From the IMG/VR virus record IMGVR_UViG_3300046674_000251, positions 1-38,423 of that record: 38,423 nt of DNA; one strand, written 5' to 3'. This document shows, piece by piece, positions 419 through 38,423 of this stretch (positions are counted from its first letter, which is position 1; every line of letters starts with the position of its first letter). The notes below the pieces were generated by a model that was not told the origin of the DNA, ran no database searches, and saw nothing but the letters and a program-made list of their open reading frames with translations. Made by a program: the position numbers and the translations under genes. Source of the DNA: a virus.

Positions 419-3400
419 GTGGCACTAGAGTCGTTGCGTGGAGTTGGCGGGAACGACCCGGGAGCTCCCGATGGCCTAGCTCAGCAGCACGCGGAACCTT
501 CGGGCGTCCTGGAGTCGCTGACCGAGAAGTATGGTACCCAGGCGCCTCGGTGGCAGACCGGCGGCCAGAGCGGCAGCACCGACAACGGCTGGATGAACGA
601 CTTCTACAAGCGCATGTTCACGCAGCGGGACGACTTTACCAACCGCAACGAGATGGCTAACTGGTACGGCGACTCGAGGCTCACCACCGTGGCGACGCGG
701 GACCAGAGCGTCAACGGCCGCGACGTGAAGTTCGGTGACGTGTGGGACAACGGCCGGCTCAAGTACAACCTCCTGGACAAGAAGAGCGGGTTCAGCGAGC
801 AGGAAGCCTACACGATTCTCGGCGACCTCATGCTGGAGAAGTCGACTCGAGAGCACGCCTACAAGAACCTGGACGTGGATCCGCAGGCCCTCAAGCGCGA
901 GGTGCAGCGCGCCTACGCAGAGGAAGCACCGAGGCAGGCGGCCGCGATGGGCGCACAGGCCCACCAGCAGGAAGTCGATCAGCTCAAGGGCTCGTGGGAA
1001 GACTCGCCCCTGGGGAACGGCGTCGCTGCAACGCTCGCTGGTGCTGCTGGCGGCGCGGCCACCGGCCTCATCGCCGGCCCCTGGGGTGCTCTCGCCGGTA
1101 CCCTCATTGGTGGCATCGGCGGCTTCCTGAACCAAGACTCCCTGGAGGACCAGGCAGCGCGCGCCTCGATTCAGACGGGCCAGGCGCTCCGGCAGGGCGT
1201 GCCGGACGGCCAGGAAGACAACATCCTTGGCGCAGTCTCCACCGGCCTGAAGCAGTGGGGCGGCGTTGCCTTGAGCTCGGCGAGCCCCCTGACCAACCTC
1301 GTCCACGGCGGCGTAGACGCCACTCAGGGTAAGGGTATCGGCGACAACAAGGTCGGCTGGTACGAGATGGACCGCTCGACCCCCGGTGGTATGGCCCTCA
1401 CTGGCCTCGGCCTGGCGGCCACCCTCGGCGACAGCCTCCTGCAGTTCGGCTCCGGCGTGGGCCGGGCCGTCTACCTGGGTGCCACGGGCGCCTCGGTCGC
1501 CGGCGGCGTCGGCCAGCTCTCCTCGATGGGTGGCGCAACCTGGGACGACCGCCGTGGCGACTTCCACTCCCCAGAGAACTTCGGCCAGTGGGCCGCCGCA
1601 ATCGGCGGCGTCGCGATCGATGCAGTCCAGATGGGCGGCGGCGCGGCAATCGCGAGTGCGGCCCGCCAGGGCGAGAAGGTCCTCGGCCGCACTATCAGTG
1701 ACGACGTGGCCGCAACGGCTGCGCAGGCGCGCGGCTCTCAGCACCTCGCCGGACGCGAGTTCCGCTTCGACGAGGCGGGCCGAGTGGCGAGTGTTCGCCC
1801 GAGCCTGCAGATCGTTGCCCCGAGTGAAGCGGTCCAGTGGGCCAGCGTCCGCGTCCAGGCCAACACGATGCGTGCCAAGGCTGCCGGTGCCGGCGGCGAC
1901 GTCCGGGCCGTGAGCACGGACGACTTCAACCAGATGCTCTACACGGCGGCGCTCGACCTGTCACACGGGTCACGCACCGCAAAGATCGCTTTCGTCAACG
2001 CCTTCGGTGAAGGTACTGAAGAAGCCGTCCAGGCTGTCCTCGAGCCGATCAGCCACGGCTGGACTCCGGAGTACGGCAACGTCGCGGAGAGCTTCCTCAT
2101 GGGTGCCGCGGCCGGCGCCGGCATGAGCGCGGGTGCCCGCGTGGGCCGGATGAGCCAGGACACCAAGGACTACCACCGGGTGAACACAGCCCTCGGTCTG
2201 CAGGGCATGGGGAAGATCGAGGCTGACGCCTGGAAGCAGATGTCCCGGGAGCAGAAGCAGACCATGAAGATGCTGCCCGCGATCGTCGAGAAGGACCTGC
2301 AGGAGAGCGCGGCCCGCGTCGCCGAGAGCATGGTTCACGAGGTTGTGACGTCCGAGGCCGGCATCGACCGGCTCGTGAGTGCACAGATCGCGAAGCGCGA
2401 CCAGGAGCTCACGAATGCGAACCCGGCCCTGGAGGGCACGTACCGAATCAGTGGCCTGCCGACCGTCGAGGTACCGAACCACCACGTCCAGACCTCCCTC
2501 AACACCACGCTCAAGCTGCTCCGGGCGAACGAAGACGGCCTGACGCTACGGCTCCAGGACCAGTCGATCGAACCTGCTGAGCGGACCGAGATTGAGACGG
2601 TCCTGCAGGCGCACGGTGCCCTGAACGCGCAGCTGACCCCGCTGCTGCACGAGGTCGAGGCGACGACCTCCCGCGACGAGCTCGACACCGTCATCGGCAA
2701 GATCAACAGCCTCCTGCAGGCGGCGTGGGACAGCACCCAGGCCCAGGGCGGTGCGATGGCAAAGGCCGTCGGCGTGCTCCTGTCCCGCAGCCCGAACAAC
2801 TCTGACGGCTCGTTCCAGATGCTGCTGCCCCAGGTGCTGCCGGAAGCAACCGAGAGCGGCTCAGACGGCCTGCTGCAGGTGAGCCAGGCGATCCTCAAGG
2901 CGATCGACGGCGACTGGGACGGCGACACCATGAAGCAGCACGCGGCTCTACGGCCCGTGCAGTTCCGGAACGATATCGCTCAGGACGCCGTGTGGCGGAG
3001 CTTCCGGCTAGGCCAGAACTTCCTGTCCACCACGGACGGGACCCCGAAGATCGGAGTCCGTGCATACGAGGAGCGCGAGCTGCGCGCCGTCGCCGAGGAC
3101 CTGCTGTACGGTACAGACCTGCAGAGGGACAACGCCAAAGCCTTCCTCTCCAACATGGATGGCTGGCTGCGCGCCGCCTTCCGTCGAGTCCCGAACATCG
3201 ACGCGATCGCGAAGGACTACCTCGAGCTGGTCCGCACCGGCACCCCCAAGTCCAAGGAGTACCTGCTCCGCCGGCTGGCGACCGAGGGCGCAGACGCGAT
3301 CCTCGAGATCTCGCAGGACGGTGTGCCCGGCTACCTGACCCCGATGAGCAACCCGTACCTGGTCCTCGACCAGCAGCTGAACGTCCTGCTGCAGCAGTAC

Positions 3401-6400
3401 CAGGAGTCTTCGGCCCCGATCCGGACGGCAGACCGCGAGGTCAACCTGCACAGCAACCCGCAGCCCCTGCTGCCCGGCGCCCCCATCGCCGAGCGGGCAG
3501 CGGTCGAGGCCGCCCTGACCGGCATCACGCTGCACCAGGCGATCGTGGGAACCGATGGGTTCCGTGCCCCACAGCACCTCCACTACTCGGCCCTGCGCTC
3601 ACAGATCGAGGCCGCCGGTCACGATGTCCCGACCGAGCTCGACAGCCTCGTCATGCTCTACGAGCTGATCAACGCAGGCATGCGGACGCCTGCGAACGAG
3701 GAGATCTTTACCCACGACGACATCGGCCAGCGGGCGATGCGGGCCCTGCTCTCCTACACCAAGGAGTTCAACGCCAACACGCAGGTCTTCCAGACGGCCG
3801 CCCTGGTTGCCGGCCTGCAGGTACCGAACTACGTGCCCGACGACGCCGCGGGCTTCCGCATCGTCGATGGCCACCAGAGTATGGCACAGTTCATCCTGAA
3901 GCAGGTCGCGGACGCGGTCGAGATGGAGCACCGCGCCGACGGCACCTGGGGAGAAGACGAGAACCTCCAGACCGAGGTCGGCCAGCTGCGCGCGATGGCT
4001 CCTGGCGACGCGTGGTTTAGGATCCTCGGTGACGTGCGAGCCTTTGCCCTGACCGGCAACACGAGCAACGCGTTCGCCGCGAACCTTACGGCCAACCAGA
4101 TCCGTGCGGACTACCTGAACAAGACGCCCCTGGGCCGCGAGGACTACCGCGAGCGCATCAAGATGGACGTTCGGTACCCGCGTGGTGCGAGTCACAACCT
4201 GCCGTACTCGATGGATGAGGTCGTCGACAAGACCGTCAGCGAGTACTCGATCTTCGCCGACGCCCTCTTTGAGAGTGCCGACAACGAGCTGAGCTTCGAC
4301 TCGACGAAGGGAGAGCTCCACGGCCGGAAAGCTAAGCGCGACTCGGACATGCTGGACAACATTGAGAACTCGATGAAGTCCGCCCGCCTCGCGGTGCAGC
4401 GCCTGGCCGGCGAGCTCTACAAGAACCGCCAGCTGACCAAGAACGGCAAGCTCGACTACGACAACCTGGCCCGGATTCTCGACGCGAACCCGGACTTCGC
4501 CCGGAGCCTGCTGAACCTCATTCAGGACGACGTCGCCCACATCGTGCTCCGCCAGGAAGAAGGCGGCCGGATCGGCTTCCAGCGGTGGTTCCTGGAGATG
4601 TTGCTGGAGGAGAACCCGGCTGAACAGGCCATGATGTACTTCCGCGGCGTGTTCCTGGCCCAGCTCAGCGCACACAACGCTGTCGAGAACCCCCGCGACT
4701 CTGACGACCGCCTTGTCCGCCTGTACCTAGAGCTGCGGACGGAGCCGGCGCGGGCCGCCGAGTTCCAGAAGAAGCTGTTTGAAGCCAAGGACGTGCGGGA
4801 CTTCATGCGGTGGGTCAACATGACGCACCTCACCGGCGCCCCGCAGCTCGCCTGGTTCCGTGACGCAGCCGAGTTCGACTCTTCCCAGACGAAGGGTGGC
4901 TGGAGCCGGTCCCTGCCCGGAGCCGAGCTGCGCGAAGCGATCACGAAGTTCTCCAAGGAGAGCATGCGCTTCTACGCGTTCGCCGAGCAGGAGATCCTGC
5001 AGGACATGGAAGACGCGAGCATCATCACTCAGCTGGGCCAGGCGCTGTCTCAGCTCGAGGACGGCCGGCAGACCGACGCCGACCCGCTCGTGAAGGACGC
5101 GCTCCGCCACCTGGAGATGATTGGAGCTCTGCCCCAGGGCCTCGGCCCGATGGTGATGCGCCAGGGCCCTGTCGGGCTGACCTTTGGTATCTTTGGCAGC
5201 GCGACGGATAAGGGCAAGGCCGCTGATCCGATCGCCCCACTCGCCCACGACCAGGCTCGTGCCGAAGCCATGCACCAAGAGACCGGCTACGAGCAGCTGG
5301 TCGCACTCTTGACGAGCCACGATGCCGACTCTGTGGCACAGAACCCACAGGTTCTCGCCCAGCGCGATGTCCGCATGATGGACAACGAGGGTCGGACGGC
5401 AGAGTGGACTCCGCTCAAGCTCCAACAGCTCGTGGACCTATGGAAGGATCCGGAGAACCGCCCGGCACTCCGGGCTGCACTCTTCCCCTCGACGTGGGAG
5501 GTACAGCAGAGCGGGTCTCTCGCACAGCAGCACCTCACAGGCACGTCCCTCAAGGCTCTGCTCAGCGGCGAGACCTATGAGCGGATGCTCAGTGGCCGAG
5601 CTTTCCAGGACGACCTGAACTACGCGTCGATGGTCGACGCCCTGGGCAAGAAGCACGGCACCACCTACGCGATCCAGCGCCGGGTGACGGCCTTCGCCCT
5701 CGCCCAGCAGAGCGCTTCCCGCTACAAGCTCTCCATCGAAGACGTCGAGTCAATGGTGGACGACCTCTACCGCCAGTACACCAAGGCTCTCCGAGTCGCG
5801 GCAGAGTTCCGGGAAGACCCCAAGATCGCCGAGGCGATCAACGATGCCCTGGATGCAATGCAGCAGGAGCGCCAGTTCGGTCGGACTGACCCTGAGATCG
5901 TTAGCAGCATCAAGAAGTACCTGCTCACCAGCATGGAACCGGCGTCTATGCAGCTGTCTCCAGAAGAGATGTCCTTCTACGATGAGCGGAAGGACGCGCT
6001 GGAAGCCCTCTTCGCGACGGACACCTTCGAGAAGATGATCCGTGCGTACACGATTAACTGGGACGACCCCCAGGACGTCAAGTACAAGAAGCGGCTGCTC
6101 GCCCAGCTCGTCCACGACAAGCCGAACTACGTCGAGGCTATCGCCGACCGGCCTGAGATCTCCCACCTGCGCTCCCTGAGCATGACGGATGACCTCGACA
6201 AGACCATCATCCTCCACCCGAACCCGGAGGCTGACCAGGAGGCATGGGACGCTGTAGCCCAGCAGGTGCTCTCCGTCATGTTCGACACCGTGGAGACGAC
6301 TGCAAGCACGAACGTACCGAGTGCGCTCGCCGCGAAGCAGATGACGGCGAAGCTCATCAAGGCTACGGACGACACCCTGGACCGAGAGAACCTCGGGAAC

Positions 6401-9400
6401 GCCCAGTTCTGGGATCCTAGCTACCGCTACCTCATCGACCACCTGCTCAACCCGGACTCCGCAGAACTGAAGGCAGCCGAGGAGTTCCGCCAGGTCGTCT
6501 TGGGCAAGGAGAACTACGCCCGGATGTACTCCCTCAAGGACTTCACCGATGCGATCGGTGTCCTGATGGATCCCTCGAAGTACGGGCCCTGGACGAGTGA
6601 CATCGCGCGGATGAGCGTTGATGCGATGAACCGCTTTGACTCCTCCGGCGCCGGCCGGCAGGTCGCGAGCTCGGGCATCTCCTACTCCAAGCAGGCTGCC
6701 CTCTCCCGGGCTACCGGCCGTACCTTCCAGAATCCCGGAGCGACTGTTGCCCGGACCTACACGATCGATGAGCCTAAGCTGAAGCTGCTGCGCCAGGGTG
6801 AGGCGGATCTCTTTGCACCCGGCGGCATGGCGGCTGCGGCCCCGGGAGCTCCGATGGAGAACCTTGCCCTGCTGAATGGCCGGTTCGTCACCGAGGTTCA
6901 CCTGTCGTACCGTGAGAAGGGCGGCTCGCCTGTCGATGTGGACCTCCTCGCGGATCCCGCGGTCCGCGTCAAGGCAGCCCAGTCCTACGTGGGCCAGGGC
7001 GCGACCAAGAAGCTCCCGTACCAGGCGACGAACATCAACCTGCTCCTGGCTTCAATCAACTCGGTGCTTCCGGAGGACGCGACCGACCTGCAGCTGGACG
7101 TCTCGTTCTTCCACCCGCAGGACCAGCCGGCTCACCCGGACTTCGCCAACAACATCTTCTTCGAGGGCCTGGGTCTGCCGCCCAGTGCCGACCACTACAA
7201 CTCACTGATCGAAGCCCTCTGGCTCAGTGATGACGGCCTGAACGTCTTCGACCAGGCTGCAGCCCTGAAGGCGAACAAGAAGGGCGTGCTCTCCCTCCGG
7301 AACCCGGAGCTGGCCGCTCAGCAGGCTATCACGGCCTTGGAGGACCCGACCGACGTCTACGGGACTCTCCAGAGGAAGCTCGCGCACCTCATGACGACCA
7401 GCCTCGGGCACAAGGTGCTGGAGCCGATCTACGCGCCGGCCGTCTTCAAGGACCTCAAGATGCGGCACGCGCTCCGCGTGACGACGGGAGAAGTCACAAC
7501 CCTGCTCTCTGCCGACCAGGCGATCGAGCTGCAGAAGAGCGGCGGCATCACGGCGGACTCGCTCGAGCTCGTCACGATCAGCCCGCGCGTGCTGCGGACT
7601 CTGCTCGGCGAGCAGGACCTGCAGGGTGTGACCCGGCCGTTCACTGACGCACCGACCGTGAACAGCGCGGGCGTGACTGTCTGGACCAACGACCTGCAGG
7701 CACTCGCCGAGGAGCGGATGCCCGGCCTCCTGGAGACCGGCACGATGACCTTGGAGGAGGTCATCAAGGAAACCCGGATCGGCCGGCGCAGCGCCCTCGC
7801 GCAGTCCACCGTCCGTCCGGCCCTGACCCGCGAGCAGCGCGCTAAGTTCGCAGACCGAGCGGCTCGCTGGGAGCGCAAGGCCGAAGAGGTCGAGTACAGC
7901 CGCCTGCGGAACGACGCGACCCGGGCACGCCTAGTGGAGCATCGCGAGCAGGGCCTGGCCATGATCAACCAGGACCGCTCGATCCTGAGTGACATGGGCC
8001 ACTTCGCCTTGCGTGACATGGGTCTCAAGATCGATCTCCCCGTGGGCATCGATGTCGCTACCGACAAGCAGACGAATGAAGTCGTCCGGCGGAAGTTCAC
8101 CGAAGCCATCGCCTTCAAGGACACTGCAACGATCGTGGTGTACTCGCACGACGGCACTGTGAAGGGTGAGCGTCGCAACGGCGTGATCCACAATCTCAGT
8201 CAGTTCGAGGATCCGGGTGACCACGAGAGTAGGGCCTACTCGCTCATCCGCGGCGACGGTGCCGTCATCAGGATCGACTCGTTCGCGGGGACCGCGGACC
8301 CAGTGGAGCGCCTGCGAGAAGCCACGGCTGTTGTCAAGGCTGCGGCGGGACGAGGCGTCCACATTGCCCTCGCGACAGGCAACCCGAAGCACGTCGACAT
8401 CGAGCTCCGCTACCAGCTCGGCCCGGTCCTGGAGGCAATGGGCTACAAGTCGGTGGCCGGCGCCCCCGGCGTGTGGACCCCGCTCCAGGAGGCGGATCTC
8501 GAGTCCAAGACCCTGGAGGCCCGCAACTCACGGCTCGTCGAGGTCCGGCACCTGGACAGCGCCAGCCACGTCGCAGTCTTCAACGCGACGCGGGGTGTGA
8601 ACGTCGAGGAGAGCGCCGCGCTCATCAACAACATCCACCGCAAGGACGGCCGAGAGGTCGCGCTCGCCCGTGACCTCGCACCGACGATGGCCTTCAGCGG
8701 CTTCAACACGGCAGTCACCAACGATCAGAAGGACCTCGTCCGGCGTACCCTGGCCGCCTACCAGCAGCCGGAGAAGCTCGACCACCTGTTGAAGCTGACT
8801 GACAAGGTCACACCCGCCCCGAAGAAGAAACTCTTCAGCCGGGACAAGACCCAGGATGAGCGGAAGACCGAACTCGAGGCGGCTCTCGTCAAGGCGCTGG
8901 ACAACCTCGACACTAATGGCTTGCCCCGGCAGGACAGCGAGTTCGCTCCCGGTGACATCATCGCGCTCGTCGGCCCGAAGAATCAGGTCATCCTCTACCG
9001 TCACGGCTACGAGCCGATCAAGAGCGACAAGATGCTCCGAGAGATGCTGGCCGAGCCGGATGCCGACGGGACTGCCGGGAGGATCGCGATCTACGGCGCG
9101 ACACCTCTGGAAGACGCGACGACGCACACGGGCAAGGTCATCAAGTGGAACACGACCCCCGGCTACGGACTGGTCCTGGAAGAGCGCATTCCGCTCCAGG
9201 CACTCGGCAACAAGACCGTGCTGGAGCGGAACGGCATGAAGCTCGTCGGAATCAGCATGGACGGCAGTGGCGTCCAGCTCCCGGAGTTCGGCCCGCTTGC
9301 CCGCTGGGAAATCGACTACATCATGAGCTGGGAGGACTCGCTCAGCAAGGAGAACTACGACGGCACCATTCGGACAGCTCGGAACGCTATCGGCTACCTG

Positions 9401-12400
9401 GGCTTCGACTTCGTCGGGACCTACGCTAAGACCCTCTTCGGCGTCTCGGACCAGGATTACGCAGCGATGTCGCTCGAAGACAGGCGCTCGCTGCAGAGCC
9501 TCATCAAGGACTTCTTCACGGCTGTCGGCCGGCGGGAGAAGCTCTCTATCCTGCAGGTCGATCAGATGCAGCGGACGCTGTTTAGCTTTGATCCGATCGC
9601 TGACGCGACGGTCAAGACTATTCTGGGTGACTCGCTGATTGCACCGCTCCTGAAGAGCGACCGACTAGTCAAGCTCGAGCGGGCCGACTGGACACCGGAG
9701 GATACTGCCACAGTGGCAGCTATCCTGTACATGCAGAGCCCTGGCGCCACCGCCGATCACATCCTCGGTGCCGCCGGCTTCGGCCCGGAGGCACGAAAGG
9801 GAACCTACCAGTCGTTCCTGCCGCCAGAGCTCTTCACGAGTATCTTCGACAGGGCCCCGATGGGCAGCGAGCTCCGTACCTGGTTCTTCGACAAGCTGAA
9901 CCGCCAGATGTACAAGGAACCCGCTGCTCCAAAGAAGCGCCAGACAGGCTACCACCTGGCTCAGGACTGGACATTCACGGTCTTGAACGAGGATCCTGCA
10001 AAGAACCTCGAAGGCTACCTGCAGTTCTCTGAAGCCCACTCGACGGGCGACAACCCGACCTTGTCGAACATGGCGATGGACCGGAACCAGAAGCAGAACG
10101 TGAGCCGGCAGCAGACCCTCGTGGCCGAACAGTCTCTCGGGGCGGACTTCGCTAGTGCGAAGGGCCTCAAGAAGACCCAACGGTTCATTGCGCGTGAGGG
10201 CATCAAGGATGTCACCACGACGGCCGACTTGTTCGAGATGATGAACGGCGGAACCAGCTTTGCTCCGCAGCCCAAGCACTCTCGAGTGATGAACGTTGCG
10301 ACTCACATGGCCCTGGAGAACGGCCGGAAGGAGCGCCGGAAGTTCCAGCAGGTCCTCAACAAGACCAAGTGGGACGAGGCCCAGGTCGCAGCCTACGACA
10401 AGCGTGTTGCCGAGATCATGAACTCGCTGGGGCTCGCCCAGGAGTACGCGCACATGGCGGACTGGTGGGTCCGCATGTGGGCTCTCGCGCCTCGGGATCC
10501 CGAAGCAACGACGACCGCCGGCGAGGGCTGGGTCACTGCGGCGCACGCGATGGAGAGCCTCCAGAAGATCCAGCAGAACGTCGCGCAGAACCACTTCCCC
10601 ACGCACGGTAGCATGATGCCCTTCATGAGCTTCAACGAGACCTACCTGCTCGCGCAGGCAGCACTCAACAACAAGGGCAGCTGGCGGCCGGAGAACGTCA
10701 ACACGGAGAGCGACTTCTACCACGCCGCACTCGGCATGATCAAGAGCAAGTTCGATCCTGCCTTCCGCGTCGCGGCTGACGGCTTCCTCCAGAGCTTCCG
10801 CAACGCCGGCGAGGACTTCGCCTCCATGCAGATGACTGTCGATGAAGTGCGCGAGCTCGATCTCCTGGATCCGCGGACGAACGAGCTGATCCTGACTTGG
10901 AACCGGAACCAGGCGATGAACCTGGATGACCCGATCATCACGGATGCCTACAACGCGCTGCTGACGGACCTGTTCGACGGGCAGCAGACCCAGGATCCGC
11001 TGATTCGTAGCAACCGGAAGATGCGGAAGTGGCGCGAGGACACGGACCAGGCGCAGCCGGTGGCCCAGACCCTCGCGGACTACAAGGCACAGGGTGCACG
11101 GTTCGTCCACTACGGGACGACGACGAGCTCCCTGATGCGGATCCTGACCGACCTCCGCGCAGCGAACGGTATGTTCAACCCGTTCCTGTACGCTGTTGCG
11201 CCTCTCGAAATGGGCATCCGCAACATCCTGGAGGACGTCTCCTCGATCGTTACCGGCGACGGGACGACGGGCCTCGGAGCCAAGCTCAACCCGGACTTCG
11301 ACCCCGTACTCGCGAAGGCAGCGAACACCCTCTACAGTGACATGGGCCGGAACCAGGGCTTCAAGGGCATGATGTACCGTGAGCTGGTCACGCGGCCGCA
11401 CCTGCACAACGCTGGCCGGGTGGAGAAGTTCGCCCACATGCTCGCACAGGTGGGCGGCAGCTGGCAGGATCCCTCGTACGGCATGTTCCAGAAGACGATG
11501 GCAAAGCGGTACGTCGAGTCGGTTCTCCGGCACGTCGTAAGCACCGGCAGCCAGACGACTCTGACCCCACGTCGTGTCATCGAGATCCTCTCGATGGATC
11601 CTGAAGGCATTCAGAAGGCGCTGCCCGAGGCACACCGTTATGCGATGAACACGATCGCGAACGTTCGGAGCCTCAAGCCGACAATGGCCTCGCTCATGTA
11701 CAAGTCGGTCCTGGATCCGCTCAAGGCCAACGGAAACCTCGCGATCAACGTGCCGGCCAACCTGACGAACATTACGACCCTGTTCCTGCCCTACGCGATG
11801 AACGTCGCGACCAACATGCTCGGCCTCCAGGGGCTGAACGCGATGGCTGCCGTGCTCGCCAGCGGCAAGGGCGGCAAGAAGCTGGGCAAGATGCAGGCGT
11901 GGCTGCAGGGTGTCGAGTACGACCCTGCGATCCACGGTGTAGACTTCGCTGCAGAGACCCTGGAGAGCGTGGACCTGGCCGACGCCTTCATCCGGAGCGG
12001 CATGACCCACACTGCGCTCATGGGCCTGGGTCTGCTCGGCCAGTCTCTCGGCCTGACCGGCGGTGGAGACGAGGAAGAGCGTCGCCGGCGCCGGGCGGAG
12101 GAATTCGCTGGCGTCGGACACCTCTACGACCCGCGCGATATTGCGAATGACTTCCGAAACGCGGACGCAATCTTCTTCGACAACCTGCCGGAGTGGATCC
12201 CGTTCGCGGGAAACCTCAAGGAGCTCTTCGAGGTCCAGGGCCCGGAGGCCCCCGGTGGCTCCCGCAGCATGGCTCAGCTACACTGGACGCTGAAGCAGTT
12301 CATCAGCCCCATGATGGGCATGGAGCGGTTCATCCAGACGGGCGACTTCCGCCAGGTCCTGTGGGGCTTTGAGGACGCGCTCGGCTCGATGCCGCTCGTG

Positions 12401-13807
12401 AATGCCTCCTCGTGGGACGAGGCTGCAACCGTCAGTGCGGAGCTCGCGAGCAACGCGGCCAAGGAGGGTGCGTCAGGCAACCCCGAAGACATGGCCAATG
12501 GCTTTGGCTTCCTGTTCAAGAGCGTCATGACGCTGGAGCGGATGCTGTTCGAGAACGCCTTCGTGAACAGCATCTACCAGTCGATCGACAAGTACGACCG
12601 CGACCCGTGGACCGTCGTTGACGTTGACTCCGAGGGCAAGATCGTGCGTGACAACACTGATGTCCCGATGGACACCAAGGCGATGCAGCAGTACCTCGAC
12701 GACAACAAGAACGTCGCTCTCTCGGACATCCAGCACAGCGAGGGTGACGTCGCGTTCCGCCGGCTCGGCGAGCAGCGCGCGACCCTGGCGTTCTTCGGTA
12801 GCCTGTTCACCGGCTTTGACACCAAGGACTCCCTGTGGCGGTACGACATGGCTGTCAAGACCCGCAAGGTCGAGAAGCAGGAGCTCACTGTTGATCAGCA
12901 GGAAGCGCTGATCCTCAGCCAGTGGGACCCGAACTCGAAGCGCGAGGTCCTCACCATGAAGGGTGCGGAGGCAATCCTGAAGGGCCTCCACATGGGAACT
13001 GTTAAGCCGGGCGATCCTGCTCTGGATAACGTCTTCATCTCGTTCGAGGATCGCAAAGCGATCAGCGATCGCTTCATGGCCCGGATGAAACAGGATTACC
13101 TCGACGCCGGCATGGGCGAGGAGAAGGCACAGAAGACGATGGAAGACGTCTTCTACGGCCGGACCAACCCCTACGCAAAGAGCCTCTTCGAAGCCATCTG
13201 GAGCAAGGGCGACTTCGAGAAGTCCATCCCCTTCGAGTCGGTGAACCAATACCGCCAGCTCAACACAACCTACGTGATGGGCCCGGACGGTATGCCGTGG
13301 GCCACTGGCCTAGGCCGGAACATCCTAGGGAACTTCTGGGGCATGAATCCGCTCCAGCGGTACAACGGCAAGGGAGACGGATCCAACCTCACCCTCGACA
13401 ACCGCCTGAACGCGACCGACGAGCAAGCCAACCTGAACACCGGTATGCGGAACCTGGAGAAGGTCCACGCGTCCTGGGCGAACCCCACGGACGAGGACAT
13501 CCTCAAGGCGATCCAGGACGGTCTCGAGAAGGTCCGGCAGGAGGTCCGTCACCCTGGCTGGACCGACTACGCCAAGCGCGGCTACACCCCGTACAGCCGG
13601 AGCGGCTACAGCCGTGGCGGCGGCGGCGGCTACGGCGGCGGCGGTGGCGGCGGCTACGCCTACAAGCTCAACGGCCCGGAGCGCAACAATGCAACCTACG
13701 GCCACAACGAACCCTTTATCCGAGTCGACAACCCCATCATCCGACGCGCCTCGATCCGTCGAGAACGCTTCTCCAGCAACCGAGGAAGGCTGAACCAGTG
13801 GCAGTAG
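419..13807 (+). CDS. giant virion protein with beta-prime-like RNA polymerase catalytic motif
   Basis: A 4462-residue protein. GTG start at 419 with GGAGGT at 410-415. Visible layout: a polar N-terminus; glycine-zipper, membrane-like stretches at about residues 198-239, 321-367, 389-416 and 558-577; then at 786-876 a match to the beta-prime DPBB of multisubunit RNA polymerases (R790-x-P792, D832-W-D834-G-D836, M838, H841, N867-x-L-S, G874-x-P876). A long, mostly helical middle follows. Further hydrophobic stretches occur at about 3788-3816 and 3864-3883, with a short Arg-rich patch just after. A Gly/Tyr-rich tail begins at about 4398. Its overlap with portal places it in the structural operon. 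I infer an internal virion protein ejected with the DNA: pore-forming segments plus a single-chain virion RNA polymerase. The gene is in one uninterrupted frame. The beta-like barrel with its two lysines was not found. The virion role is an inference; the motif is directly visible. Confidence 0.9.
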   Translation: MALESLRGVGGNDPGAPDGLAQQHAEPSGVLESLTEKYGTQAPRWQTGGQSGSTDNGWMNDFYKRMFTQRDDFTNRNEMANWYGDSRLTTVATRDQSVNGRDVKFGDVWDNGRLKYNLLDKKSGFSEQEAYTILGDLMLEKSTREHAYKNLDVDPQALKREVQRAYAEEAPRQAAAMGAQAHQQEVDQLKGSWEDSPLGNGVAATLAGAAGGAATGLIAGPWGALAGTLIGGIGGFLNQDSLEDQAARASIQTGQALRQGVPDGQEDNILGAVSTGLKQWGGVALSSASPLTNLVHGGVDATQGKGIGDNKVGWYEMDRSTPGGMALTGLGLAATLGDSLLQFGSGVGRAVYLGATGASVAGGVGQLSSMGGATWDDRRGDFHSPENFGQWAAAIGGVAIDAVQMGGGAAIASAARQGEKVLGRTISDDVAATAAQARGSQHLAGREFRFDEAGRVASVRPSLQIVAPSEAVQWASVRVQANTMRAKAAGAGGDVRAVSTDDFNQMLYTAALDLSHGSRTAKIAFVNAFGEGTEEAVQAVLEPISHGWTPEYGNVAESFLMGAAAGAGMSAGARVGRMSQDTKDYHRVNTALGLQGMGKIEADAWKQMSREQKQTMKMLPAIVEKDLQESAARVAESMVHEVVTSEAGIDRLVSAQIAKRDQELTNANPALEGTYRISGLPTVEVPNHHVQTSLNTTLKLLRANEDGLTLRLQDQSIEPAERTEIETVLQAHGALNAQLTPLLHEVEATTSRDELDTVIGKINSLLQAAWDSTQAQGGAMAKAVGVLLSRSPNNSDGSFQMLLPQVLPEATESGSDGLLQVSQAILKAIDGDWDGDTMKQHAALRPVQFRNDIAQDAVWRSFRLGQNFLSTTDGTPKIGVRAYEERELRAVAEDLLYGTDLQRDNAKAFLSNMDGWLRAAFRRVPNIDAIAKDYLELVRTGTPKSKEYLLRRLATEGADAILEISQDGVPGYLTPMSNPYLVLDQQLNVLLQQYQESSAPIRTADREVNLHSNPQPLLPGAPIAERAAVEAALTGITLHQAIVGTDGFRAPQHLHYSALRSQIEAAGHDVPTELDSLVMLYELINAGMRTPANEEIFTHDDIGQRAMRALLSYTKEFNANTQVFQTAALVAGLQVPNYVPDDAAGFRIVDGHQSMAQFILKQVADAVEMEHRADGTWGEDENLQTEVGQLRAMAPGDAWFRILGDVRAFALTGNTSNAFAANLTANQIRADYLNKTPLGREDYRERIKMDVRYPRGASHNLPYSMDEVVDKTVSEYSIFADALFESADNELSFDSTKGELHGRKAKRDSDMLDNIENSMKSARLAVQRLAGELYKNRQLTKNGKLDYDNLARILDANPDFARSLLNLIQDDVAHIVLRQEEGGRIGFQRWFLEMLLEENPAEQAMMYFRGVFLAQLSAHNAVENPRDSDDRLVRLYLELRTEPARAAEFQKKLFEAKDVRDFMRWVNMTHLTGAPQLAWFRDAAEFDSSQTKGGWSRSLPGAELREAITKFSKESMRFYAFAEQEILQDMEDASIITQLGQALSQLEDGRQTDADPLVKDALRHLEMIGALPQGLGPMVMRQGPVGLTFGIFGSATDKGKAADPIAPLAHDQARAEAMHQETGYEQLVALLTSHDADSVAQNPQVLAQRDVRMMDNEGRTAEWTPLKLQQLVDLWKDPENRPALRAALFPSTWEVQQSGSLAQQHLTGTSLKALLSGETYERMLSGRAFQDDLNYASMVDALGKKHGTTYAIQRRVTAFALAQQSASRYKLSIEDVESMVDDLYRQYTKALRVAAEFREDPKIAEAINDALDAMQQERQFGRTDPEIVSSIKKYLLTSMEPASMQLSPEEMSFYDERKDALEALFATDTFEKMIRAYTINWDDPQDVKYKKRLLAQLVHDKPNYVEAIADRPEISHLRSLSMTDDLDKTIILHPNPEADQEAWDAVAQQVLSVMFDTVETTASTNVPSALAAKQMTAKLIKATDDTLDRENLGNAQFWDPSYRYLIDHLLNPDSAELKAAEEFRQVVLGKENYARMYSLKDFTDAIGVLMDPSKYGPWTSDIARMSVDAMNRFDSSGAGRQVASSGISYSKQAALSRATGRTFQNPGATVARTYTIDEPKLKLLRQGEADLFAPGGMAAAAPGAPMENLALLNGRFVTEVHLSYREKGGSPVDVDLLADPAVRVKAAQSYVGQGATKKLPYQATNINLLLASINSVLPEDATDLQLDVSFFHPQDQPAHPDFANNIFFEGLGLPPSADHYNSLIEALWLSDDGLNVFDQAAALKANKKGVLSLRNPELAAQQAITALEDPTDVYGTLQRKLAHLMTTSLGHKVLEPIYAPAVFKDLKMRHALRVTTGEVTTLLSADQAIELQKSGGITADSLELVTISPRVLRTLLGEQDLQGVTRPFTDAPTVNSAGVTVWTNDLQALAEERMPGLLETGTMTLEEVIKETRIGRRSALAQSTVRPALTREQRAKFADRAARWERKAEEVEYSRLRNDATRARLVEHREQGLAMINQDRSILSDMGHFALRDMGLKIDLPVGIDVATDKQTNEVVRRKFTEAIAFKDTATIVVYSHDGTVKGERRNGVIHNLSQFEDPGDHESRAYSLIRGDGAVIRIDSFAGTADPVERLREATAVVKAAAGRGVHIALATGNPKHVDIELRYQLGPVLEAMGYKSVAGAPGVWTPLQEADLESKTLEARNSRLVEVRHLDSASHVAVFNATRGVNVEESAALINNIHRKDGREVALARDLAPTMAFSGFNTAVTNDQKDLVRRTLAAYQQPEKLDHLLKLTDKVTPAPKKKLFSRDKTQDERKTELEAALVKALDNLDTNGLPRQDSEFAPGDIIALVGPKNQVILYRHGYEPIKSDKMLREMLAEPDADGTAGRIAIYGATPLEDATTHTGKVIKWNTTPGYGLVLEERIPLQALGNKTVLERNGMKLVGISMDGSGVQLPEFGPLARWEIDYIMSWEDSLSKENYDGTIRTARNAIGYLGFDFVGTYAKTLFGVSDQDYAAMSLEDRRSLQSLIKDFFTAVGRREKLSILQVDQMQRTLFSFDPIADATVKTILGDSLIAPLLKSDRLVKLERADWTPEDTATVAAILYMQSPGATADHILGAAGFGPEARKGTYQSFLPPELFTSIFDRAPMGSELRTWFFDKLNRQMYKEPAAPKKRQTGYHLAQDWTFTVLNEDPAKNLEGYLQFSEAHSTGDNPTLSNMAMDRNQKQNVSRQQTLVAEQSLGADFASAKGLKKTQRFIAREGIKDVTTTADLFEMMNGGTSFAPQPKHSRVMNVATHMALENGRKERRKFQQVLNKTKWDEAQVAAYDKRVAEIMNSLGLAQEYAHMADWWVRMWALAPRDPEATTTAGEGWVTAAHAMESLQKIQQNVAQNHFPTHGSMMPFMSFNETYLLAQAALNNKGSWRPENVNTESDFYHAALGMIKSKFDPAFRVAADGFLQSFRNAGEDFASMQMTVDEVRELDLLDPRTNELILTWNRNQAMNLDDPIITDAYNALLTDLFDGQQTQDPLIRSNRKMRKWREDTDQAQPVAQTLADYKAQGARFVHYGTTTSSLMRILTDLRAANGMFNPFLYAVAPLEMGIRNILEDVSSIVTGDGTTGLGAKLNPDFDPVLAKAANTLYSDMGRNQGFKGMMYRELVTRPHLHNAGRVEKFAHMLAQVGGSWQDPSYGMFQKTMAKRYVESVLRHVVSTGSQTTLTPRRVIEILSMDPEGIQKALPEAHRYAMNTIANVRSLKPTMASLMYKSVLDPLKANGNLAINVPANLTNITTLFLPYAMNVATNMLGLQGLNAMAAVLASGKGGKKLGKMQAWLQGVEYDPAIHGVDFAAETLESVDLADAFIRSGMTHTALMGLGLLGQSLGLTGGGDEEERRRRRAEEFAGVGHLYDPRDIANDFRNADAIFFDNLPEWIPFAGNLKELFEVQGPEAPGGSRSMAQLHWTLKQFISPMMGMERFIQTGDFRQVLWGFEDALGSMPLVNASSWDEAATVSAELASNAAKEGASGNPEDMANGFGFLFKSVMTLERMLFENAFVNSIYQSIDKYDRDPWTVVDVDSEGKIVRDNTDVPMDTKAMQQYLDDNKNVALSDIQHSEGDVAFRRLGEQRATLAFFGSLFTGFDTKDSLWRYDMAVKTRKVEKQELTVDQQEALILSQWDPNSKREVLTMKGAEAILKGLHMGTVKPGDPALDNVFISFEDRKAISDRFMARMKQDYLDAGMGEEKAQKTMEDVFYGRTNPYAKSLFEAIWSKGDFEKSIPFESVNQYRQLNTTYVMGPDGMPWATGLGRNILGNFWGMNPLQRYNGKGDGSNLTLDNRLNATDEQANLNTGMRNLEKVHASWANPTDEDILKAIQDGLEKVRQEVRHPGWTDYAKRGYTPYSRSGYSRGGGGGYGGGGGGGYAYKLNGPERNNATYGHNEPFIRVDNPIIRRASIRRERFSSNRGRLNQWQ
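2774..3046 (+). other. beta-prime-type RNA polymerase active-site segment (residues 786-876 of the giant protein)
   Basis: The order and spacing follow bacterial beta-prime. VLLSRSP matches VLLNRAP. A Gln sits 10 residues and a Pro 14 residues after the Arg, as in E. coli. DWDGDTM-x-x-H matches DFDGDQM-x-x-H, 42 residues after the Arg (35 in E. coli). QNFLS-x-x-DG-x-P then matches NNILS-x-x-NG-x-P about 31 residues later (about 25 in E. coli). In cellular enzymes the three Asp residues hold the catalytic magnesium and the Arg contacts the incoming nucleotide. All three Asp and the Arg are present here. A calcium-binding loop could mimic DxDxDG alone, but not the flanking elements. Confidence 0.8.
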
Positions 13808-20347: not shown

Positions 20348-23300
20348 ATGCCTAGTAGAATAGCTATAGTAGATGCGGATGGCGTTCTCGAGCGAGATAT
20401 CCAGATCCCTGAAGAGAGCCTGCCTTCGTGGCTCAATGAAGCAGCGATGGCGACGTACATGCGGGTCAATGACCTGACTGACCCTGACTCGCCGGCCGGC
20501 AAGGCACTCTCCAAGGGGTATGCTCTCCTGGACGAGGACCAGAAGATCGCTGAAGCTAACCTCCCGGAATACCTCTCGGAAGAAGAGCTTGCCGGGAAGT
20601 CTGACACTGCTCACACCCACCCGCTTGCTACTGCAAATGTGCCGGGGTTTATGTCCCCCGCGGACAAGATCAAGCTCGACACTTACGGCCTTAAGGGTGA
20701 CAAGGGTGATACCGGCGCGACTGGTGCTACCGGCTTGCAGGGCCCTACCGGCGCTACCGGCCCGCAAGGTCCTGCAGGTCCCCAAGGTCCGAAGGGCGAC
20801 AAGGGCGACACGGGTGCTCGTGGCGCTGACGGAACCTCTGTCAAGATCAAGGGTAGCGTCGCCTCCTCCGCGAGCCTGCCGACCTCGGGCAACGTCGCGG
20901 GCGACGGCTGGGTAGCCCAGGATACCGGACGCCTGTGGGTGTACGGCACGACCTCGTTCTCTGACGTAGGACCGTTCAAGGGTGACAAGGGCGACACCGG
21001 CCTCACCGGTGCTACCGGCCCTGCCGGACCTGCCGGTGCGACTGGAGCAACCGGTGCCCAGGGACCGGGCGGCCCGCAGGGTGTGAAGGGCGACACTGGG
21101 CCCCAGGGCCCGAAGGGTGACACGGGTGCGACCGGTCCTGCTGGTAGCGGCACTAGCTCTGCCACCTGGAAGCCTACCACCGCCTACATTGCCGGCCAGG
21201 TGACTGTAGCACCGGATGGCAACCTCGTCACCGCCAAGACCGCGCACACCTCGGGTGCGACGTTTGATGCGACCAAGTGGAACACGCCTCCGCTGTCCGC
21301 GGTCGTGGCTGCGGCCTCCCCTGATGCGGACACCATTGTACGTACCAACCTCTGCGATACTCCCAGCTTCGAGTACGGCACCGGCTCTTGGGCCAAGGGT
21401 GCCAACGTCACGATGGCGACCAGCACGACCAAGAAATACGTCGGCTCGCAGTCCCTTGCCCTTACTCGATCTAACACCACCTCTGGCAACGGATACGCCC
21501 GCTACAACTTCACGGCACAGGCGGGTGTCACGTACACACTCAGTGTCTACGTCTATGGTGGAACCGGTGCGGCGAACACTTACACCATCAAGGCCACGGG
21601 TGTGTTCACTTCAACCACCGTTACCTTCACTCCGAGCGCCACTTGGCAGCGGGTGTCTGTGACGGTCACGGCTAACTCCGCGGGTACGGCGAGCTTCTAC
21701 ATCACCGATGACAACAACACGACACCTACCGTCGGGTCGGTGCTCTACATAGACGCAACGCTGATCGAACAATCCTCCACGCTGGGAGATTACTTCGACG
21801 GCAGCTCGGGCCTGGCCGGCAACGCCTACCACCGGTGGCTCGGTGCGCCCGGCGCTTCCCTCAGCGTGGAGTGCGTCAGCGCCACCCTGGCCCAGAGGGA
21901 TGCCAATGGCAACCTCTCTGTCACAGCTCCACTCTCCGCAGAAGCTGCAGCGAACAAAGCCTACGTGGACGGCCTCATTGCAGCACGTACCGGCTCCACT
22001 CGTGTCACCACCGCCAACGAACTGGTGGTCAACGTTCGGGACTTCCTGGATCCCAACCGCGTTGAGGGTACCACGGATGACCTGCCTGCCTTCACTGCTG
22101 CGCTGGCGACGGGCGGTAGGGTCTTCGCGCCGGCCGGCGAGTACTGGATCAGCAGGGCCATCCTCATGCCCAGCTACTCAGAGCTCTATGGTGCAGGCAT
22201 CGACAAGACAAAGATCCTGCTCCTGGCCTCAGCTCCCAACGATACCTGGGTTATCTCCAACTCCACCCCCACCGCTGGCGGCAACAAGTACATCTCTGTC
22301 CACGACCTCACGATTGACTGGCGGCAGAACGCTAGCCGGCCAGGCGCGGCCGGTGGTACTCGGTCTTCCTGCCTAGCCTTCCGTGCTGTGGAGTACTTCT
22401 GGATCGAGCGCGTGAAGGCAATCAACTCTGGCCTGCACTGCTTCGACATCGCCCAGGGCTCCATCGACTACCCCTACAACGGTGACGGCTCTGCTGAGCC
22501 CTCCGATCCTTCGCGCTTCGGCTGGATTCGGAACTGCATCGGTACCGCGTGGGGTGACGATGGTATCACGACTCACCACAGTGAGTTCATCACGATCGAA
22601 GACAACTTCATGTACGACCCGCGCGAGCGTGGGAACTGCAACGGTATCGAGATCGATGATGGCTCCCGCCACATCACCCTCGCTAACAACATCACCCGGG
22701 GCTGCTACGGCGGTGTCGAAATCAAGGCCCACGAGGATGCCAACGCAGCGAAGAACGTTATCATCAACGGTCACTACGATGACTGGTCCTGCCGGTCCTA
22801 CAACTTCCGGCACATCGGACACCACACGGGCACCGATACGCCGTCCAAGTCAGCGTTCGACATCATTGCCACGAACCTTGTGTCGGTGAGTGCGAACAGC
22901 TCCAAGGGCTTCCAGGATGATACCAGCCCTCGCGCTCTGTGCATCAGTGCGTACCGGCGTGTGAGCATCAACGGTATGACGATCATTGGTACGGGCAGCT
23001 ACGGGGCGGGCGACCTTGCCGTTGCGATCCAGTATTGGGCCAGCAACATCAGCATCTCGGGCATCAACATCACGGGCTGGAACGGCGCGGACCAGGACAT
23101 CTCCATCACCTCTGGCGACAACATCAGCGTCAATGGGGTGAACATCGTGAACTCCGCCAAGAAGGCTTTCTACATCGGAGCCACTGTTGTTGCAGCGCAG
23201 GTCTGGGGTGTCAATGCCGTGGCTCCGGCCACTGGCTCTCTCTACGGCATGGACATCTACAACTCCATGATGGTAGATGTCTCTGCTGTCTCCTGCAGCG

Positions 23301-23653
23301 GATACCCCTACGTGATCAAGGCTGACGGTGTGCTCTACCCGAGCGCGGTCAAGTTCTACAACCGTGTGGGCATCCAGCCTGCCGGCACGACCAGCATGAA
23401 GGCCCTGGACCCGGGCCGGGACTACTACTTCAACACGAGCGAGTTTGCCGCGCTCGGTGCTGACCGTCCAGGACCTGCCGCAGCAGCGGGCGGCGGGTAC
23501 TTCGTGACCCACAGCTCCCTGAGTTCGGACAGCGTGATCCAGACAGTGACCCGCAACACCAGCAGTACGTCTCAGGCCCAGTACTGGCGGATCCTGAACT
23601 GGGTGAACCAGACTGCGGGCCCCTGGAACCAAGCCTCGTTCGCCCAGGTGTAA
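20348..23653 (+). CDS. tailspike with collagen-like segments and beta-helix
   Basis: An 1101-residue protein. ATG at 20348, one base after the previous stop. Residues 1-110 include a fibre-type HTHPLATANVPGFMSPADK motif. Two collagen-like Gly-x-y segments (about 115-160 and 210-268) flank a short beta domain. A CBM5/12-like segment follows at 271-315 (TTAYIAGQVTV...TSGATFD). Next comes a jelly-roll carbohydrate-binding-like domain at about 330-500 (NLCDTPSFEYGTGSW). From 565 (FLDPNRVEGTTDDLPAFTAA) a pectate-lyase-type right-handed beta-helix runs to about 1000, with a Trp-rich C-terminal cap. This is the architecture of receptor-binding spikes. Polysaccharide-degrading activity is possible, but no catalytic residues can be named from sequence alone. 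Confidence 0.85.
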   Translation: MPSRIAIVDADGVLERDIQIPEESLPSWLNEAAMATYMRVNDLTDPDSPAGKALSKGYALLDEDQKIAEANLPEYLSEEELAGKSDTAHTHPLATANVPGFMSPADKIKLDTYGLKGDKGDTGATGATGLQGPTGATGPQGPAGPQGPKGDKGDTGARGADGTSVKIKGSVASSASLPTSGNVAGDGWVAQDTGRLWVYGTTSFSDVGPFKGDKGDTGLTGATGPAGPAGATGATGAQGPGGPQGVKGDTGPQGPKGDTGATGPAGSGTSSATWKPTTAYIAGQVTVAPDGNLVTAKTAHTSGATFDATKWNTPPLSAVVAAASPDADTIVRTNLCDTPSFEYGTGSWAKGANVTMATSTTKKYVGSQSLALTRSNTTSGNGYARYNFTAQAGVTYTLSVYVYGGTGAANTYTIKATGVFTSTTVTFTPSATWQRVSVTVTANSAGTASFYITDDNNTTPTVGSVLYIDATLIEQSSTLGDYFDGSSGLAGNAYHRWLGAPGASLSVECVSATLAQRDANGNLSVTAPLSAEAAANKAYVDGLIAARTGSTRVTTANELVVNVRDFLDPNRVEGTTDDLPAFTAALATGGRVFAPAGEYWISRAILMPSYSELYGAGIDKTKILLLASAPNDTWVISNSTPTAGGNKYISVHDLTIDWRQNASRPGAAGGTRSSCLAFRAVEYFWIERVKAINSGLHCFDIAQGSIDYPYNGDGSAEPSDPSRFGWIRNCIGTAWGDDGITTHHSEFITIEDNFMYDPRERGNCNGIEIDDGSRHITLANNITRGCYGGVEIKAHEDANAAKNVIINGHYDDWSCRSYNFRHIGHHTGTDTPSKSAFDIIATNLVSVSANSSKGFQDDTSPRALCISAYRRVSINGMTIIGTGSYGAGDLAVAIQYWASNISISGINITGWNGADQDISITSGDNISVNGVNIVNSAKKAFYIGATVVAAQVWGVNAVAPATGSLYGMDIYNSMMVDVSAVSCSGYPYVIKADGVLYPSAVKFYNRVGIQPAGTTSMKALDPGRDYYFNTSEFAALGADRPGPAAAAGGGYFVTHSSLSSDSVIQTVTRNTSSTSQAQYWRILNWVNQTAGPWNQASFAQV

Positions 23654-36164: not shown

Positions 36165-37037
36165 CTATGGCGCGTCGTACCTTCCGATGTTGCGAACGAT
36201 ACGGTCAGTCTCGTCCGTCGACAGTCCCAGGTCATCTGCCCTGGCGGTCAGGTGTCCTTCCCAGCCCGGCACGCCGGCGGCCTTGAGCTTGTGTCCGATG
36301 GCGAACAGGCTCGTGTTCCGCTTTCCAGCGGGGATCGGCTTGGCGAGTTCGTCCAAGAGTTCTGCGTGCATGATGAGGATCTCCGTTTCGTCGAGTGTAT
36401 CTAGTTTCATTGCTTGCGCCGTGAAGATGGCGCGTCGTGCCTTGCGCTCAATGAGCTTGTCCAGGAACCAGTCCGGGATCTCTGCGATCTCCCGCTCGTT
36501 CCATCGCTGACTCGGGTAGTGGTAGACGCACCCCACTGCCCGGATGTCCACGCCGGTGACGATGCCGATAGCGTCGGCCAGGAGGCCGAAGCCTTCGTCC
36601 TCTGTCCACGGCTCTTGTACTGCGTAGAACAGGTGGTACCCGTTCCCGCTCTTACTCGTCTCAGCCAGCGTCAGGGGCAAGGCCCCCAAGCTGCCTGCAT
36701 GCTCCAGCCCTCCATTCTTGCCGTCGATATCGACGCACAAGAGCCGAGTGCTGCGCATCACGAGTGCGGCTGCGTGCGTGCCCTTCTCGTACCCGTACTC
36801 CGTGCGCCGCGGCAGGAACTCGCCTCGCGCGTACCGGGCCATGAAGCCCTCGTCGCTGCCCTGTGGAGGCGTGAGCCCCCAGCCAGACTGTGTGGATCCG
36901 TTCTCATACGAGCGCACGAGTGCCGGACCCTGCGGCCCCCACAAGGAGGGCTCGTTGATCGCTTGCGGCGCCAGGAGTGCGTCTACAGTGTAGGCGTCAG
37001 TCTCCCACCAGTTCTTCGTCTGGATGTTCAGTCCCAT
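36165..37037 (-). CDS. bifunctional primase-polymerase (prim-pol)
   Basis: A 290-residue protein. ATG at 37037 with AGGGAG upstream. The archaeo-eukaryotic primase core is visible: L-C-V-D103-I-D105-G-K for metal binding, then S-K-S-G-N-G-Y-H135-L-F-Y, the typical prim-pol SGxGxH nucleotide-binding element. The C-terminal third is helical (IPAGKRNTSLFAIGHKLKAAG), as in primase C-terminal domains. It would make primers, and may extend them, for phage DNA synthesis. Its start overlaps the end of the helicase gene by 41 bases, suggesting coupled expression with it. Confidence 0.8.
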   Translation of the reverse strand: MGLNIQTKNWWETDAYTVDALLAPQAINEPSLWGPQGPALVRSYENGSTQSGWGLTPPQGSDEGFMARYARGEFLPRRTEYGYEKGTHAAALVMRSTRLLCVDIDGKNGGLEHAGSLGALPLTLAETSKSGNGYHLFYAVQEPWTEDEGFGLLADAIGIVTGVDIRAVGCVYHYPSQRWNEREIAEIPDWFLDKLIERKARRAIFTAQAMKLDTLDETEILIMHAELLDELAKPIPAGKRNTSLFAIGHKLKAAGVPGWEGHLTARADDLGLSTDETDRIVRNIGRYDAP

Positions 37038-38397: not shown

Positions 38398-38423
38398 AGA
38401 TATCATCCCCCTTAAGGACTGGG

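Follow-up and report, generated by a model that had tools for sequence, protein, structure and literature searches.

A likely two-barrel RNA polymerase with permuted barrel order in the giant virion protein of actinobacterial podoviruses

In this study, we report that the giant protein of an Arthrobacter-type short-tailed phage, encoded on a 38,423-base IMG/VR virus record (the window, that is, the whole stretch of DNA analysed here), carries the beta-prime-type catalytic barrel (DPBB-A) of multisubunit RNA polymerases (RNAPs) and, some 2,100 residues downstream, a probable beta-type barrel (DPBB-B). We consider it likely, with a probability of about 0.8, that this protein is a virion-packaged and ejected DNA-dependent RNAP of the two-barrel (multisubunit-type) class; its polymerase activity, its ejection and its transcription of early genes are inferred. 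This reading is a proposed answer to a question raised for phages of the Microbacterium cluster EK and of the Burro type: their largest gene, of 13 kb, occupies a quarter of the genome, and its role has been called unclear or unknown (PMC7302621, PMC8281081).

The giant ORF runs uninterrupted over 4462 codons and its product has a predicted mass of 491 kDa. Its nearest cultured relative is gp30 of Arthrobacter phage MissAmericana, with which it shares 67% identity across 4420 aligned residues; the giant proteins of Microbacterium podoviruses of the Eekayvirinae (Akonivirus, Tinytimothyvirus) and of Burrovirus follow at 25-30% identity. In MissAmericana and in these relatives, a gene of 13.3-13.5 kb lies immediately 5' of the portal gene. 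With the conserved C-terminus as query, 37 IMG/VR loci and one MAG contig labelled Propionibacterium were recovered. We therefore regard the giant protein as the product of an old, very diverged family carried by phages of ~54 kb. The C-terminal part, which is the most conserved, is inferred to be a packaging or portal-docking part, a role that we find likely. The MAG contig (CALMKG010000117.1, binned as an uncultured Propionibacterium) encodes a homologue of the C-terminus at 39% identity and is in all likelihood a phage contig within that bin. The coordinates of the features discussed here are collected in the table.

Table. Features of the giant ORF, with positions in the window and the evidence on which each rests
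Feature	Position	Strand	Evidence or remark
Giant ORF	419..13807	+	Opens the rightward virion operon; portal gene directly downstream; synteny with MissAmericana gp30
Region with RNAP beta-prime-like predicted fold, residues ~671-1004	2429..3430	+	Against E. coli 351-637 and T. thermophilus ~622-949
DPBB-A, beta-prime-type catalytic barrel, residues ~782-880	2762..3058	+	Motif; invariant columns in 32 sequences; PDB profile search
R790-S-P792	2786..2794	+	Invariant R and P; counterpart of the nucleotide-contacting Arg R425 (E. coli beta-prime, VLLNRAPT)
D832-W-D834-G835-D836, metal-binding triad DxDGD	2912..2926	+	Invariant in every homologue checked
Region with RNAP second-largest-subunit (beta/Rpb2) predicted fold around the DPBB, residues ~2705-2997	8531..9409	+	VIA; Foldseek weak
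Candidate DPBB-B, beta-type barrel, residues ~2843-2996	8945..9406	+	PGDII...YRHGYEP...YGL...LGNK(2932)TVLERNGMK(2941)LV...SK(2977)ENYDG
Invariant lysine pair K2932, K2941	9212..9241	+	34/34; counterparts E. coli beta K1065/K1073 and yeast Rpb2 K979/K987
C-terminal ~660 residues	11819..13804	+	Most conserved portion of the giant protein; terminus RRERFSSxRGRLNQWQ

Several observations concern the rest of the window. Upstream of the giant ORF, a palindromic AT-only stretch, TATATATATACATATATATATATGTATA, is found at 103-130. A tail protein of 1101 residues (20348-23653) combines collagen repeats, a carbohydrate-binding domain and a part resembling a pectate-lyase-like pre-neck appendage, and is likely the host-recognition tailspike. 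At the right end, primase/polymerase and primase genes are oriented leftward (36165-38406, minus strand) and correspond to the MissAmericana left end, and the window is likely an incomplete linear piece of a genome of ~54 kb.

In public records, the giant proteins of three relatives (PQ184795 gp30, NC_048860 gp27 and NC_048801 gp27) are named 'tape measure protein'. We did not retain this name for the giant protein because the relatives have short tails, and the label is probably misleading; MissAmericana encodes a nozzle protein and the phage group is described as podoviral. Domain scans of the giant protein against Pfam and PHROGs gave no useful match and no Pfam RNAP domain. PF00623 and PF00562 did not match on the window, whereas the controls matched in 14 cases out of 14. 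PF00940, the domain of T7/N4-type single-subunit RNAPs, gave no match in ten relatives, yet no control genome matched it either, and the window protein is without any Pfam match. No other RNAP gene was seen in the stretches of the MissAmericana annotation that were examined.

The evidence for DPBB-A comes first from its active-site motifs. The first-pass annotation, made from sequence alone, had claimed that residues 786-876 reproduce elements of the beta-prime barrel in order, with the three catalytic aspartates and the nucleotide-contacting arginine kept. Both claims held, and all spacings agree with those of E. coli beta-prime. Positions 2774-3046 translate as VLLSRSPNNSDGSFQMLLPQ...AIDGDWDGDTMKQH...QNFLSTTDGTP, for which the E. 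coli counterpart reads VLLNRAPTLHRLGIQAFEP...NADFDGDQMAVH...NNILSPANGEP, with R790 paired to R425. Counted from this arginine, Q occupies +10 and P +14 in both proteins; counted from DGD, M occupies +2 and H +5, again in both. The giant protein also contains the element N-x-L-S-x-x-x-G-x-P.

The same annotation had proposed two checks, namely the conservation of D832, D834, D836 and R790 among homologues and the presence of a DPBB fold in a structure model, and the claim survived both. With regard to conservation, these four residues are invariant in all homologues checked. Across the DPBB-A region of 32 aligned proteins that share only ~20% identity, the fully invariant positions are N763, R790, P792, S798, D832, D834, G835, D836, R863 and G865, and all of the further IMG/VR records that include the DPBB-A region (23/23) keep RxP and DxDGD. 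Within DPBB-A, family-wide conservation is limited to the Arg, the Pro, a GS[FYW] block, the Asp triad and R863-x-G865, and does not extend to the M, the H or the NxLS element. In shuffled copies of the giant protein, DxDGD alone arises in 10%, and its combination with an RxP further upstream in 0.6%. The motif alone is therefore modest evidence, and it is its conservation that turns it into strong evidence.

The second line of evidence is the predicted fold. An AlphaFold2 model of residues 560-1330 was obtained with a pLDDT of 73.6 and a pTM of 0.46; it should be kept in mind that this model and the one described below for DPBB-B rest on merely 25-26 sequences each. When compared with the PDB using VIA, all of the 50 best rows were RNAP largest subunits, with Z-scores of 11.0-10.3. 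The matches involve model residues 112-445, with ~220-245 residues aligned in the well-fitting rows. Foldseek gave a probability of 1.00 and a best E-value of 5e-4 for the same model, with the beta-prime subunit of phage AR9 among the structural matches. In a viral structure library, the model retrieved the giant proteins of Burro, Truong and TinyTimothy, followed by viral RNAP subunits.

An hmmsearch of the family profile against the PDB (E-values of 0.016-0.053) retrieved the non-virion RNAP (nvRNAP) of phiKZ (E=0.016) and the beta-prime subunit of the AR9 nvRNAP (E=0.049), and these alignments cover exactly the RxPT..GS..LKA..DFDGD block. The best row of this deeper-profile search was a de novo designed helical protein that matched on a helical tail, and was discarded. 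With an earlier profile of 640 residues, helical noise came on top and AR9 beta-prime was found at an E-value of about 2. By hhalign, the family aligns in register with residues 421-542 of E. coli beta-prime and 764-821 of P23-45 gp96. Shuffled controls scored lower in 59 of 60 cases; the remaining seed scored ~130 against every target and was treated as an artefact. Among the tblastn rows listed, the rpoC of a Staphylococcus jumbo phage was the only other named protein (E-values of 4-8). Altogether, by computation on sequence, predicted fold and conservation, we regard DPBB-A as established at the level of its fold and of its active-site residues.

Two alternative explanations bear on this barrel. 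The first is a chance resemblance or a convergence, in favour of which it can be said that DxDGD alone is expected in a tenth of the shuffled giant proteins. Against it, the motif is conserved by all homologues, every one of the 50 structural matches is an RNAP largest subunit and the Foldseek result contradicts it as well, so that this explanation is all but excluded. The second is that the domain descends from an RNAP but now serves as a non-polymerase part of the ejection machinery. That it is embedded in a giant virion protein whose C-terminus is strongly conserved would be compatible with such a fate. However, the invariance of the catalytic Asp triad, of the Arg and of the Lys at ~20% family identity is that of an enzyme under selection for catalysis, and we hold this second explanation to be very unlikely.

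The active site of two-barrel RNAPs includes two conserved lysines, K979/K987 in Rpb2, that come from DPBB-B (PMC4996933). In the giant protein, residues ~2843-2996 likely form this second barrel, an assignment of moderate strength that is carried by conserved lysines and by structural rows but weakened by a low Z-score and by a profile score that does not exceed those of shuffles. In the aligned homologues, K2932, K2941, K2977 and G2995 are each present in 34/34 sequences, G2845 in 33/33, D2846 in 30/33 and G2939 in 31/34. The local order PGDII...YGL...LGNKTVLERNGMKLV...SKENYDG parallels that of beta, GGDILVGKVTP...PGDKMAGRHGNKGV...PSRMNIGQ, in which the GDILVGKVTP strand is taken from a Staphylococcus-type beta row. 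The elements GD(I)...GxK...GxK...SK..G are thus collinear with GDIL...GDK...GNK...SRMNIG of beta, with a spacing of 9 between the two lysines as against 8 in beta. Both barrel regions occur in one chain across the homologue family.

The structural support for DPBB-B comes from a model of residues 2420-3080 (pLDDT 71.7, pTM 0.39). Among its 50 best VIA rows, 46 are beta/Rpb2-type chains from bacteria, plastids, archaea, eukaryotes and viruses, with Z-scores of 5.5-4.2 and mostly ~185-205 residues; rows were counted as RNAP from entry titles, chain letters and chain lengths. The four others comprise one p97 double-psi barrel and three matches on another part of the model. From the ends of the aligned ranges only, we estimate that K2932 lies no more than a few residues away from K1065 of E. 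coli beta and K979 of yeast. A Z-score of 5.5 is below the level that would be safe on its own, and Foldseek was weak for this model (E-values of 0.4-0.8). While hhalign placed DPBB-B in the correct register against a profile of nine beta sequences, its score of 14.0 was not above the shuffle maxima of 15-18, and an hmmsearch of the DPBB-B profile against the PDB gave no RNAP match, only an unrelated thioredoxin-like one.

These weaknesses leave room for a further alternative, in which DPBB-A is genuine yet pairs with something other than the K2932/K2941 region, DPBB-B being supplied by another gene, by an unrecognised region of the chain or by a dimer. The profile score that does not rise above shuffles, the structural Z-score of only about 5 and the weak Foldseek result speak for it. 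Against it stand the three invariant lysines in the right context, the fact that 46 of the 50 structural rows correspond to the same beta/Rpb2 region and the lack of a conserved basic residue upstream of DPBB-A. A partner located elsewhere thus appears unlikely, and we retain residues ~2843-2996 as the candidate DPBB-B.

The order of the two barrels is unusual. DPBB-B precedes a connector and DPBB-A in P23-45 gp96, gp64, QDE-1 and gp66 (PMC10770324), and the lysine barrel likewise comes first in PolD (PMC4996933). In the giant protein, the Asp barrel (782-880) comes first and the likely Lys barrel (2843-2996) follows ~2,100 residues downstream. A conventional DPBB-B upstream of DPBB-A was considered and rejected: upstream of R790, no position is basic in at least 90% of the aligned homologues, and the usual place of DPBB-B is therefore empty. 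As the B-then-A order of the known single-chain two-barrel RNAPs (QDE-1, YonO, gp66, P23-45 gp96/gp64) was tested and not met, we kept the giant protein out of this group. It would rather be, as we think likely, a new permuted variant of the two-barrel RNAP class with an A-then-B order, with the reservation that the identity of DPBB-B is moderately supported and that polymerase activity is inferred. In the literature that we searched, from which bioRxiv and most subscription papers were left out, we found neither a permuted two-barrel RNAP nor an RNAP assigned to these giant genes.

Other RNAP elements were sought. No bridge helix or trigger loop motif was recognised after DPBB-A; some structural alignments of the 560-1330 model extend to T. 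thermophilus ~1056, just short of the bridge helix. Further along the chain, K1598 (nt 5210-5212) is invariant in 33/33 homologues and in most of them precedes a Gly, within a [DT]KG context. The bridge helix of RNAPs starts with AGSKGS in Pol II, of which this context is reminiscent, and the remainder of the helix was not recognised. Between the barrels, residues ~2226-2250 (nt ~7094-7168) form a strongly conserved block, FHPxxQPxxxxwaNNxfFEG.

With regard to promoters, the intergenic regions of the family genomes showed no convincing motif common to all, and a sigma-70 scan of 440 bases around the giant ORF start found none. In some relatives, the noncoding stretch that separates the giant gene from the leftward genes contains repeated short hairpins (CCATG-TCTCG-CATGG with variants), interspersed with GGTTACG or CGGTTCGC repeats, at L003:10719-11018, L008:10369-10735 and also L004:11003-11028; the giant proteins of the hairpin-bearing phages are less than 30% identical to each other. 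These hairpins could possibly be a replication origin or promoters of the virion polymerase. The virion RNAP of phage N4 uses hairpin promoters.

The link to the virion comes from phage Burro. Jacobs-Sera and colleagues assigned a ~250 kDa protein seen on SDS-PAGE of Burro virions to gp27, because no other product is that large, and left its role unclear (PMC7302621). As the giant protein, of a family detected in virions, appears to carry both halves of an active site, the phage probably brings a transcription enzyme of its own into the cell along with its DNA; by analogy with the crassvirus cargo and with P23-45 gp96, the likely role is that of a packaged polymerase ejected with the DNA. In the mechanism that we propose, the catalytic Mg ions would be held in DPBB-A by D832/D834/D836 and the nucleotide contacted by R790, while K2932 and K2941 of DPBB-B, on the same chain, would face this active site, the joint packing of the barrels being inferred. 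The protein would be carried in the head beside the portal, be ejected ahead of or together with the DNA, then refold in the cell and transcribe early genes.

A bolder reading is that of a reverse-order two-barrel RNAP in one ejected virion protein of ~490 kDa, perhaps cut mid-chain; as a whole it is likely, with the cleavage being speculative. A cut near residue 2250 might, speculatively, release two halves of ~245 kDa, one beta-prime-like and the other beta-like, with one barrel apiece, that would rejoin in the host. A band of ~250 kDa for Burro gp27, whose predicted mass is 488 kDa, would fit such a cleavage, but gel sizes at such a mass are rough.

It is also conceivable that the two barrels form an enzyme with another job: it might make primers, work on RNA templates as QDE-1 does or synthesise DNA as PolD does. 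Indeed, the same two barrels serve the QDE-1-type RdRPs and PolD (PMC7281927, PMC4996933). On the other hand, the best matches by sequence and by structure are cellular and jumbo-phage DNA-dependent RNAPs, PolD retains two of the three aspartates (PMC4996933) where the giant protein has all three, and the phage family already encodes a DNA polymerase I and a primase/helicase. We thus consider another job improbable and favour a DNA-dependent RNAP. If this is true, cell-type RNAPs are packaged in the virions of actinobacterial podoviruses and, with regard to the reversed order, the universal transcription enzyme still functions when its two halves are joined the other way round. This order would bear on the origin of single-chain polymerases and on the threading of a very large enzyme through a short tail. 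As actinobacterial podoviruses are cultured and easily grown, the claim is testable now.

Among known systems, gp96 of Thermus phage P23-45 is the nearest precedent. It is a 5,002-residue tape measure protein with a two-barrel virion RNAP in its N-terminal part and DFDGD at 779-783 (PMC10770324). Like the giant protein, it is thus a giant virion protein with a highly diverged two-barrel enzyme, and DxDGD lies at a similar distance from the N-terminus in both (832-836 in the giant protein), with profiles that align over DFDGD. It differs in that DPBB-B precedes DPBB-A within ~800 residues (327-1124) and in that its phage is a long-tailed siphovirus, whereas the relatives of the giant protein are podoviruses; similarity between the two proteins was seen only in the DxDGD region, without a whole-protein comparison. 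The first-pass annotation had proposed a new setting for a multisubunit-type virion polymerase, which held only in part as gp96 makes it less unprecedented (PMC10770324). The beta-prime active site that it described held too, but is only half of the picture, the likely DPBB-B ~2,100 residues further on having been overlooked.

The gp66 of the Crassvirales phage phi14:2 is likewise a giant virion cargo of a short-tailed phage with a two-barrel RNAP, and is thought to be ejected (PMC10172136), but its order is B then A (PMC10770324). No sequence similarity to the giant protein was detected (hhalign score of 19.4), and the gp66 record is without a literal DxDGD. The virion RNAP of N4 is also a very large podovirus virion protein that is ejected with the DNA, and is of the T7 type; no similarity or shared motif was reported between it and the Microbacterium giant proteins (PMC7302621). 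YonO of SPbeta and the QDE-1-type enzymes carry two barrels on one chain, as does the giant protein, with DxDGD in YonO. They differ from it in that they are not virion proteins and, for QDE-1, in the order B then A (PMC10770324), and no clear sequence similarity was found (17 columns aligned with YonO by hhalign). Finally, the nvRNAPs of the jumbo phages phiKZ and AR9 provide the best natural PDB sequence matches of DPBB-A, through RxPT...GS...LKAxxADFDGD, but are made of several separate split subunits where the family described here has one giant virion protein.
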